NCBI GenBank assembly: GCA_025057905.1
Contig: JANWUX010000001.1
Location: forward strand, 270,155-334,154
DNA from: Patescibacteria group bacterium
Lineage (GTDB): Bacteria > Patescibacteriota > Microgenomatia > UBA1406 > GWC2-37-13
Direction: 5' to 3'
DNA length: 64,000 nucleotides
Program-made: the position numbers and the translations under genes
The notes under the pieces: generated by a model
Told to the model about the DNA's origin: nothing
Database searches by the model: none
The model's input: the letters and a program-made list of their open reading frames with translations, nothing else
Shown here: positions 15,781 through 18,540 of the stretch, piece after piece
Layout of the letters: each line of letters opens with the position of its first letter
Position numbering within the stretch: position 1 is the first letter of the stretch

Positions 15781-16818
15781 TTAGAGATAGATATAGTTAA
15801 CTTCCTTAATGTTTTTAATTACTTCAGTTGATGTCGCCACTGATTGGTAATTTTCAATGACTGGAAAGATGATTCTTTTATTTTCCTCGTCAAACTCAGA
15901 AAAGATATCATCCATAAGAATAATTGGCTTTTTTTTTGTTTTTTCTTCAAGATATTTTATCTCATTCATTTTCAGCCAGAAGAGTGCCAATCTCTGTTCA
16001 CTTCTTGAGCCAAATCGATGGATGCTTTTCTTGTCTGTATGAGAAATTAAAAAAATTTCGAAGTCATCCCGCTGAGGACCAACAAGGGTTTTCTTCTGAT
16101 CTAAGCTTATTTCAAAAGATTTTTTTAAAGACTCATTACTAATTTCATTTTTCTTGTACTCAATCTTAAAAAAATTCCCCGCTAATTCTTGATTCTGATT
16201 GAGGTAATTAGTATACTCTGCTCTTTTTTGAGTCAAGTAACTACCTTGTTTTATCAGGTAATCATCCCAGAAACTTAATTCCTTTTTGAGCCTTTCAAAA
16301 TTGAGATTTGACTCAAGAACTTTATTTCTTCTCTTGATTCCATTTTCGTAGTTGATTAATTTTTTTCGATATTCGTCATCAACGAAGCTGATAAATTTAT
16401 CAAAATAATCTCTTCTAAGACTAGGAGAACCGGTTATTAAAGTTAATTGATTCGGAGAAAAGAGAACTGTTTTTATCAACTCTTTGATATAAGCAAAGAA
16501 TTTTTTTTCAGCTTTTTCAATATGAAACCTTTTGATTGTTTTTTTATTATCAGCCTTAAGGCTGACAGAAAAAGATAATAAATCTTTACCGATCAAAAAC
16601 TCTCCCACTACTAACATCTGGCTCTGACTAAATCTTATCAGTTCTTCTTCTTTTTGTTCTCGGAAGCCAAAGCCATTGATTAAGAAGTAAATTGCCTCCA
16701 GAATATTAGTTTTACCTTTTGAGTTTTTTCCAACAATAAGATTGGCTTTTTTGCCAAAATTAACTTCCTTCAAAGAGAAATTTCTGAAATTGACTAATCT
16801 TAACTTTCGCAGAATCAT
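15781..16818 (-). CDS. recF: DNA replication and repair protein RecF
   Basis: About 345 aa. An SMC-like ATPase that loads RecA at gaps. It begins 'MILRKLRLVNFRNF', the family N-terminus, so the ATG at 16818 is preferred to the upstream TTG. Walker A is 'VGKNSKGKTNILEAIYF', the signature region is 'FGSRSEQRLALFWLK', and Walker B is 'KPIILMDDIFSEFDEENK'. It lies 23 bp after the UMP kinase fusion on the same strand, rather than near dnaA/dnaN as in many bacteria. Confidence 0.92.
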   Translation of the reverse strand: MILRKLRLVNFRNFSLKEVNFGKKANLIVGKNSKGKTNILEAIYFLINGFGFREQKEEELIRFSQSQMLVVGEFLIGKDLLSFSVSLKADNKKTIKRFHIEKAEKKFFAYIKELIKTVLFSPNQLTLITGSPSLRRDYFDKFISFVDDEYRKKLINYENGIKRRNKVLESNLNFERLKKELSFWDDYLIKQGSYLTQKRAEYTNYLNQNQELAGNFFKIEYKKNEISNESLKKSFEISLDQKKTLVGPQRDDFEIFLISHTDKKSIHRFGSRSEQRLALFWLKMNEIKYLEEKTKKKPIILMDDIFSEFDEENKRIIFPVIENYQSVATSTEVIKNIKEVNYIYL

Positions 16819-16841
16819 GAAAAGCAAGAGTAGCTCAGTAA

Positions 16842-18170
16842 TTATTTTTTCTTAAGAACAATCTTAGTCTCAGAAAAAGAAAGAAGACTAATTTTTTTTC
16901 TCAAGATAGACACTTGATCACTAAAATCAGAAAAAATTTTCTCCCATTGTCTTCGGTAGAAAAAAGAGATATCAGAAAAATCTCTCTTATTAAAAAGCTG
17001 ATAAAGAAGACTCTCTTTCGTGAAAATTCTATGAACTATGTATTTTCTCGAAACCCGAATACTTTCTTTGATTGTTTTCCTTATCTTGTCGTATTCAAGT
17101 TTTTCTAGCAGATTATGACTGTAAACTAAATCAAATTCATTGTCCTTGAAAGGTAAACGAGTAGCTTCGGCTATTAAAAGATAAGGCTTGATTTCTTTCT
17201 CTGCCAATTCATAAGCTTTCTTTGAAAAATCAATTCCTCTAGCATCAACACCAAACATTCGAAGGTACTTAACGATTTTTCCTAAACCACACCCAAGTTC
17301 CAAAGAGCTTTTTGGTTTAAAACTAAGCTTATAATTCAAAGCGTTAAGAGAACTGAAAAATTCATAAACTAATTTGCCGATTCCTGAATCTGGCTTAATT
17401 AGTTTGTGGACATCCTTGTTGCCAAAATAATACTCCCGATCATAATAACTCGAGTCAATCCGAAAAGGAGTGATGACAGTCCCTTTAAAAGACTTTCCTT
17501 CAATTATTTTTTCTAAATTATTGAAGTTATGTCCAGAGGTAACAATCACCGTCAGACCAAGTCTTTTGGCAAGTGGCGTGGCAATTGGATCAAAAGGTGC
17601 GTTTAGTCCTGGACGCCACTCAGTGCCGATGATTTTTTCAACTTCGTCCCAGGTAATTTTATTAATGATTTTCGCCTCTGGATACTTTTTGGGATCCTTG
17701 TCGTATATACCCTCAACATTAGAAAGATTAATCACGAGATTCGCCCGAAAATCTCGCGCCAGTATGACAGCATCATAGTCAGTCGACCAGCCAGGTTTCC
17801 AACCGGCACCAATAGCTACTGGTTCTTTCCAATTGCTAAGCTTCTTATCGTAATTAGTGATTATTCGAGGATGAGCGATATCTTGAAAAATGGTTCGAAG
17901 AAGATGAGCATTAAACCGAGTCGCATGGATTCCAAGCCAATCAAGATCTTCGTCATTGATATTCCCAATAACTGTTCGACCTGCTTCTTGATAATGGCGA
18001 GCGATTTTTCCGCCGCCGGCAATGAGAATAAACCTTCGACCTTTCGCTACTTGAGCTCGAATAAAGTGATTTAAATTAGCGAGGAATTTGGTATCAATAC
18101 CACCATTGGGAACGATTAAACTTCCACCAACGGAGATAACAATCGGTGGATCTTTTTTGTTAAAAAACAT
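16842..18170 (-). CDS. UMP kinase-like amino-acid kinase fused to a SAM-dependent methyltransferase
   Basis: The N-terminal half (about residues 1-235 from the chosen start) is an amino-acid-kinase fold of the archaeal UMP kinase type: 'VISVGGSLIVPNGGIDTKF', 'ILIAGGGKIARHYQEAG', 'DYDAVILA', 'NLSNVEGIYDKDPKKYP' and 'PGLNAPFDPIATPLAKRL'. UMP kinase makes UDP from UMP. The C-terminal half (about 255-440) is a class I methyltransferase: motif I 'SLELGCGLGKIVKYL', acidic 'ARGIDFSKKA', 'EATRLPFKDNEFDLVYSHN'. The two halves share one frame with no stop. The ORF track start at 18230 overlaps the gene before; ATG 18170 ('MFFNKKDPPIVISVGG') is more likely. The methyl acceptor is unknown. Confidence 0.8.
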   Translation of the reverse strand: MFFNKKDPPIVISVGGSLIVPNGGIDTKFLANLNHFIRAQVAKGRRFILIAGGGKIARHYQEAGRTVIGNINDEDLDWLGIHATRFNAHLLRTIFQDIAHPRIITNYDKKLSNWKEPVAIGAGWKPGWSTDYDAVILARDFRANLVINLSNVEGIYDKDPKKYPEAKIINKITWDEVEKIIGTEWRPGLNAPFDPIATPLAKRLGLTVIVTSGHNFNNLEKIIEGKSFKGTVITPFRIDSSYYDREYYFGNKDVHKLIKPDSGIGKLVYEFFSSLNALNYKLSFKPKSSLELGCGLGKIVKYLRMFGVDARGIDFSKKAYELAEKEIKPYLLIAEATRLPFKDNEFDLVYSHNLLEKLEYDKIRKTIKESIRVSRKYIVHRIFTKESLLYQLFNKRDFSDISFFYRRQWEKIFSDFSDQVSILRKKISLLSFSETKIVLKKK

Positions 18171-18204: not shown

Positions 18205-18540
18205 TCAAATGATCCCTCCTTGAAGACCAAAAATAAAAGAGATAAATCTAACTAGAAGATAGGATAATAGTAAAAGAAAAAAACCGACTAGTCCGCTAGT
18301 AATCTTGGCCCTGGCCGCCTTGAGCTTTTCTGGATTACCTTGAGAAAGAAGAAGATCATAACCTCCCCAGATTAAAACAAAAAGGAGAATGACACCAGCC
18401 AAAGGAATTAAAAATTGAAGGATTCTATTTATCACATCGGCCAGTCTGATTCTGTCGGGTTGAACACCAGGAATCTGAAGAGGTCCCTGAATTCTTTGAC
18501 CACCTACATTGATTTGCTGACTAATAAGTAACCTAATCAT
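18205..18540 (-). CDS. VirB2/TrbC-like two-helix membrane protein
   Basis: 111 aa with two hydrophobic segments (about residues 38-62 and 83-105) joined by the loop 'GNPEKLKAARAKITSGLVG'. This plan, a short tail then two helices around a charged 'G.PEK...A..KI...L.G' loop, is that of small VirB2/TrbC-type pilin-like proteins common in CPR genomes. Two relatives lie at 34164 and 34467 in this window with the same loop ('GDKPEILKKAQAIIIYAFVG' and 'GGEKEKIAKAQSKITNALIG'). No other type IV secretion genes are adjacent, so a pilus role is only a possibility. It lies between clpC and the UMP kinase fusion on one strand. Confidence 0.65.
   Translation of the reverse strand: MIRLLISQQINVGGQRIQGPLQIPGVQPDRIRLADVINRILQFLIPLAGVILLFVLIWGGYDLLLSQGNPEKLKAARAKITSGLVGFFLLLLSYLLVRFISFIFGLQGGII

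Follow-up and report, generated by a model that had tools for sequence, protein, structure and literature searches.

UMP kinase is a housekeeping enzyme that usually occurs as a bare single domain. In the window, that is, the whole stretch of 64,000 nucleotides of DNA analysed here, one gene on the minus strand (positions 16842–18170) joins an archaeal-type UMP kinase to a class I methyltransferase, and the question arises what the second domain does and whether its reaction is tied to that of the first. An initial annotation had placed the pair correctly at these positions, omitting the strand, and had named no function that it knew to be described for it; no description of such a pairing was found in the literature searched. 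The fusion is real, conserved and specific to its lineage. It adds an accessory methyltransferase to what is most likely the housekeeping UMP kinase, and it represents a new domain architecture built from known enzymes, the parts of which are ordinary.

Architecture of the fusion gene and its locus

The reading frame runs uninterrupted from an ATG at position 18170 to a stop codon at positions 16842–16844 and encodes 442 amino acids. An in-frame TTG further upstream (position 18230) is an unlikely alternative start, because the homologues align from the ATG. Residues 10–212 were assigned to the Pfam family AA_kinase (6.3e-27) and residues 290–375 to Methyltransf_11 (1e-14), both above the curated cut-off. 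Together with a match to TIGR02076 and the open frame, these assignments confirmed that an archaeal-type UMP kinase and a class I methyltransferase are encoded in one frame. The predicted model of the whole fusion had a mean pLDDT of 83 and a pTM of 0.70, and the methyltransferase half modelled alone (AlphaFold2) a pLDDT of 84 and a pTM of 0.84.

A gene for a RecF-like ATPase (15781–16827, minus strand; SMC_N/AAA Pfam hits) is located directly downstream, and a type IV secretion pilin-like gene (18205–18540, minus strand; PF18895), syntenic in many relatives, directly upstream. The recF-like gene directly follows the kinase, fused or not, in most of the compared loci of the order and also in other families of the class, and within the order the pilin-like gene and clpC usually lie ahead of the kinase. 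In genomes of the same order without the methyltransferase, the stop codon of the kinase gene commonly overlaps the start of the recF-like gene by 4 bases. Given these shared neighbours, the locus is therefore the same with or without the methyltransferase domain. No split pair, with kinase and methyltransferase as neighbouring genes, was found around the stand-alone kinases examined.

Distribution of the fusion

Full-length fusions were detected in 38 of the 72 genomes of the window's own family (the window's genome counted), in six more genomes from two sister families of the order and in three genomes of other families in the class (G091, G100 and G261). Intact copies are thus present in 47 genomes, and two more (G103 and G080) carry damaged ones. 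The homologues are 45–75% identical over their full length, the nearest named records being Patescibacteria group bacterium KatS3mg092 and a Candidatus Microgenomates bacterium. Outside the class, a phylum-wide sample of 380 genomes yielded no fusion, the hits there being stand-alone kinases or separate methyltransferases. The search for the same domain order in related Patescibacteria, proposed in the initial annotation, was thus successful. Its concern that relatives might carry the halves separately and that the fusion might be a sequencing error did not hold: since the 47 intact fusions stem from separate genomes, with full-length homologues conserved in the family, the sister families and the class, chance fusion and sequencing error were rejected, and a sequencing or assembly artefact is vanishingly improbable, damage having been seen in two relatives (a frameshift in G103 and an in-frame deletion in G080) and none in the window copy.

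On contig C20 of G103 (L127, 5992–7979), a stand-alone archaeal-type kinase that is 44% identical to the window's kinase lies directly before the frameshifted fusion, a tandem that may reflect either a division of labour or assembly damage. In G080 (L132, contig C60, 6992–8200), the deletion comprises about 37 residues and takes out the SAM motif, but the kinase hardly differs from the one in G081. This copy may have been caught in the course of losing its methyltransferase, or it may be misassembled.

The kinase half

The archaeal-type UMP kinase domain comprises residues 10–235 (17466–18143, minus strand). It scored 192.2 bits against TIGR02076 (pyrH_arch; curated cut-off 158.05), compared with 61 bits against the bacterial pyrH profile, whose cut-off is 244. 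Among solved structures, the closest were the UMP kinase of P. furiosus in a PDB sequence search (2bmu/2ji5, 1e-28) and that of S. solfataricus by Foldseek (2j4j, TM-score 0.90). Residues G15, G16, R58, D77, T130, D131 and D159 are invariant in 48 sequences and Y156 is conserved in at least 90% of them. G52–G54 are also present, and the Gly-loop and contact residues as a whole are invariant or at least 90% conserved. The residues described as contacting the nucleotide, R49, Y146 and D149 in pfUMPK and D77 in ecUMPK, match the conserved R58, Y156, D159 and D77 of the fusion (roles per PMC12404492). The active site of the kinase is intact.

The initial annotation had called for a check that a separate pyrH exists and had suggested that the kinase may act as a ligand sensor. 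Neither point was borne out. No separate bacterial pyrH was found in the window's genome (92% complete), whose only two amino acid kinases are that of the fusion and an isopentenyl-phosphate-kinase-like gene; the kinase half, as the only recognisable UMP kinase of the genome, is therefore most likely the working enzyme and not merely a sensor. Across the order, 13 of 80 genomes contain a bacterial pyrH (12 above the cut-off and one fragment), and in only two of these 13 is it accompanied by the archaeal-type gene (Fisher p=2e-6, kinship of the genomes uncorrected). Both the status as sole UMP kinase and the near-exclusion with bacterial pyrH support a role as UMP kinase, most likely the housekeeping enzyme of the organism.

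Several observations were made on related genes. Bacterial pyrH and the fusion are found together in two genomes of the order (G035 and G081). In G103, the genes upstream of the locus read as pyrE, pyrF, prs and pyrK, names that were taken from sequence reading. The isopentenyl-phosphate-kinase-like gene of the window's genome, for which the profile confirms AA_kinase only and the name is a sequence reading, is located beside uppS (L002, 1432–2235; C2: 54792–55508), an arrangement that hints at an alternative isoprenoid route. No cytidylate kinase above the Pfam cut-off was detected in the whole genome (G000), which gave a single partial match of 31 residues, leaving CMP phosphorylation without a recognised enzyme unless the gene falls in the missing 8%. 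The spirochaete Borrelia recurrentis (L073, 4992–5681) carries an archaeal-type UMP kinase that is 41% identical to the window's kinase half.

The methyltransferase half

The class I SAM methyltransferase domain (residues 236–442; 16845–17465, minus strand) was recognised by its Methyltransf_11 match, its AlphaFold2 model and Foldseek hits to class I methyltransferases such as 1ve3. It contains four motifs, all on the minus strand: an N-terminal lid, YYDREYYFG (17421–17447; family consensus FYDREYYxG), SAM-binding motif I, SLELGCGLG (17280–17306), a post-β5 pocket motif, HRIFTKES (17010–17033; family consensus HKIYTxEN), and a further pocket motif, DFSDIS (16965–16982; family consensus DFSHVS). 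P286, G293 and G297 occur in 47 of 48 aligned rows, the exception being the deletion in L132; H380, T384 and S399 are present in all 48, D397 in 47 and S402 in 46. In the METHYLTRANSFERASE half, motif I (GCGxG), the lid, H380, T384, S399 and W409 show little or no variation among the 48 copies. The model and Foldseek agree on a Rossmann-like fold with a motif I SAM site (G293, C294, G295 and G297), and the presence of the SAM motif speaks against the possibility, raised earlier, that this half lacks SAM binding. Residues after strand β5 line the acceptor pocket in the class I fold, and H380, T384, S399 and W409, to judge by their post-β5 position, presumably do so here.

In the closest pairs, dN/dS was 0.04–0.17 for the methyltransferase half and 0.02–0.10 for the kinase, with dS often near saturation. 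The methyltransferase half evolves about 1.7-fold faster in dN, and about 2.4-fold faster in the window's own genus. It is under purifying selection, looser than that on the kinase, which is consistent with SAM binding and methyl transfer. For the family, the dN/dS values and invariant motifs led us to reject a degenerate methyltransferase; this rejection is less firm for the window copy. Relative to the family, this copy carries the changes K381R, N387S and R276N, and it sits on a long branch of the methyltransferase tree (0.53, compared with 0.06–0.09 for its sisters), being the fastest-evolving among them. Its activity is therefore less certain than that of the family and may be weakened or changed.

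No named methyltransferase family matched above its curated cut-off, and the PDB fold searches did not narrow the substrate. A substitute for thymidylate synthase is unlikely, as ThyA is present (307 bits); ThyX is absent from the window's genome.

Gain and loss of the methyltransferase domain

The kinase-domain tree (89 rows) needs six changes between the fused and the unfused state, with five required by its starred branches. More than one change is needed in each of 200 bootstrap trees. The fused clade includes unfused kinases from the window's own family, and the state counts on this tree alone do not separate gains from losses. In the methyltransferase tree, a branch (support 98/93; present in 99% of bootstrap trees) separates all 48 fused copies from six unfused relatives; no unfused member of the fused clade was found in the genomes searched. 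The simplest reading is a single fusion followed by several losses of the methyltransferase, with the kinase kept. On this view, a single fusion event would have taken place in the interval between the kinase and the recF-like gene downstream of it, and several lineages would later have deleted the methyltransferase. That all fused methyltransferases group in one clade argues against independent fusions in several families. In f42 and f24, the domain may have been transferred between lineages.

Unfused relatives and the acceptor

Among 373 genomes of the class, fused copies scored at least 242 bits and the best of the remaining matches about 124; the unfused relatives considered here lie at about 110–128 bits. 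In one of the six unfused relatives (L193, 4582–6612), the methyltransferase is fused to a GT4 glycosyltransferase and adjoins genes that read, from their sequence, as Wzm/Wzt-type ABC export genes. In L194, a glycosyltransferase-like sequence lies upstream in the frame of the methyltransferase, which adjoins a GT2 gene, and in L195 the methyltransferase overlaps the 3' end of a GT4 gene. The other three (L192, L249 and L250) lie in no clear glycan operon, with a GT2-like gene about 4 kb away in L249. Three of the six nearest unfused relatives, at about 110–120 bits, are thus linked to glycosyltransferases, and the context of the three others is unclear. L193 and L195 share with the fused copies the lid (FYN+DYF), the GCxxG motif and the D-x-[ST]-H-x-[ST] loop, the D-x-[ST]-H part of which is common to fused copies and unfused relatives; they differ in being attached to or beside GT4, in scoring about 110–120 bits against the fused profile and in falling outside the fused clade. 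At the fusion locus itself, no glycan gene cluster was found, the neighbours being the recF-like gene, the pilin-like gene and clpC. By association, the glycosyltransferase-linked kin tentatively favour a sugar or glycan acceptor.

Possible functions of the fusion

We give about an even chance to a bifunctional protein in which a housekeeping UMP kinase is combined with an accessory glycan-type methyltransferase. The N-terminal half would be a working UMP kinase (UMP + ATP → UDP + ADP) of the archaeal, UTP-inhibited, hexameric type, and the C-terminal half a catalytically competent class I SAM methyltransferase from a family that is elsewhere linked to glycosyltransferases; its most likely reaction would be the O-methylation of a sugar or glycan-type acceptor. 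Both activities would be expected in vitro. The kinase hexamer would display six methyltransferase domains, and the two half-reactions would probably be independent, without channelling; two independent activities on one hexamer are the most likely state.

Rather unlikely is a coupled enzyme in which the hexamer and its methyltransferases make a methylated uridine nucleotide or UDP-sugar, or tie surface-glycan methylation to the UMP/UDP pool. Similarly, it is unlikely that the substrate of the methyltransferase is a nucleotide or nucleotide sugar that the kinase makes or that derives from its product (UMP, UDP or UDP-sugar), with channelling or coupling in one path. Consecutive pathway steps are often joined in fusions, the methyltransferase clade was not encountered without the kinase, and WbdD shows that a kinase–methyltransferase can methylate the phosphate that it installs (PMC3482155); against this, the kinase locus is otherwise unchanged after loss of the domain, the unfused kin are partly glycosyltransferase-linked and the genome has a normal ThyA, so that there is no missing thymidylate step to fill. 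The initial annotation had considered that phosphorylation might be coupled directly to the methylation of nucleotides, sugar-nucleotides or RNA, an idea for which no positive support was found. The closest unfused relatives suggest glycan decoration, and the methyltransferase is dispensable, having been lost repeatedly.

It is improbable that the methyltransferase-like half mainly regulates the kinase as a sensor of SAM or another ligand, replacing a missing allosteric control. Archaeal UMP kinases have been reported to lack allosteric control (PMC12847342), and fusions that join an amino acid kinase to a regulatory or enzymatic module are common, NAGS/K (PMC3236213) being an example, but the conserved residues of the presumed pocket (H380, T384, S399 and W409) argue for catalysis, and close relatives manage without the domain. 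To the same degree improbable is a neutral fusion, in which the stop codon between two active enzymes of an operon disappeared and the link confers no advantage: the several losses and the faster evolution of the methyltransferase half would fit it, whereas the retention of the fusion in one clade across several families of the class and the failure to find any unfused member of that clade among the genomes searched do not. That the UMP kinase carries an attached tRNA or rRNA methyltransferase is very unlikely, given that no RNA-binding domain was found in the fusion, no RNA methyltransferase family scored above its curated cut-off and no RNA-modification neighbours were recognised at the fusion loci, even though the half bears weak likeness to small-molecule and RNA methyltransferases alike, its top hits being generic.

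Comparison with known systems

With the archaeal-type UMP kinases (PyrH; P. furiosus 2BMU and S. solfataricus 2J4J), the first half of the bifunctional protein shares the whole domain, the active site, the fold and the housekeeping role. Known members are single-domain proteins (about 225 amino acids), to which the fusion adds a C-terminal methyltransferase; the single-domain state, from which it departs, is usual rather than defining, because stand-alone orthologues occupy the same locus. In NAGS/K, P5CS and aspartokinase-homoserine dehydrogenase, the amino acid kinase fold is likewise fused to a second enzyme, but the partners there share one pathway. We know of no methyltransferase partner in amino-acid-kinase fusions. 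WbdD of E. coli O9a likewise combines a kinase with a class I methyltransferase in a single polypeptide (PMC3482155), and one unfused relative of the fused methyltransferase adjoins apparent ABC-type glycan export genes. WbdD differs in its eukaryote-like kinase, its reversed domain order and its action on glycan ends, the two kinases not being homologous (PMC3482155). Membership in the WbdD type was rejected, as the fusion kinase is of the amino acid kinase family and not a eukaryote-like kinase with a coiled coil (PMC3482155).

Implications

A lineage with reduced genomes keeps its UMP kinase joined, in most members, to a methyltransferase that is under selection and apparently active. Coupling of the two reactions, if true, would point to a so far undescribed branch of chemistry, on nucleotides or surface sugars, in uncultured epibionts and provide a lineage-specific link between pyrimidines and methylation. 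If the reactions are uncoupled, the fusion would still mark its lineage and offer a clean natural experiment: orthologues with and without the methyltransferase occupy one locus within one genus, so that the function of the extra domain is directly testable.
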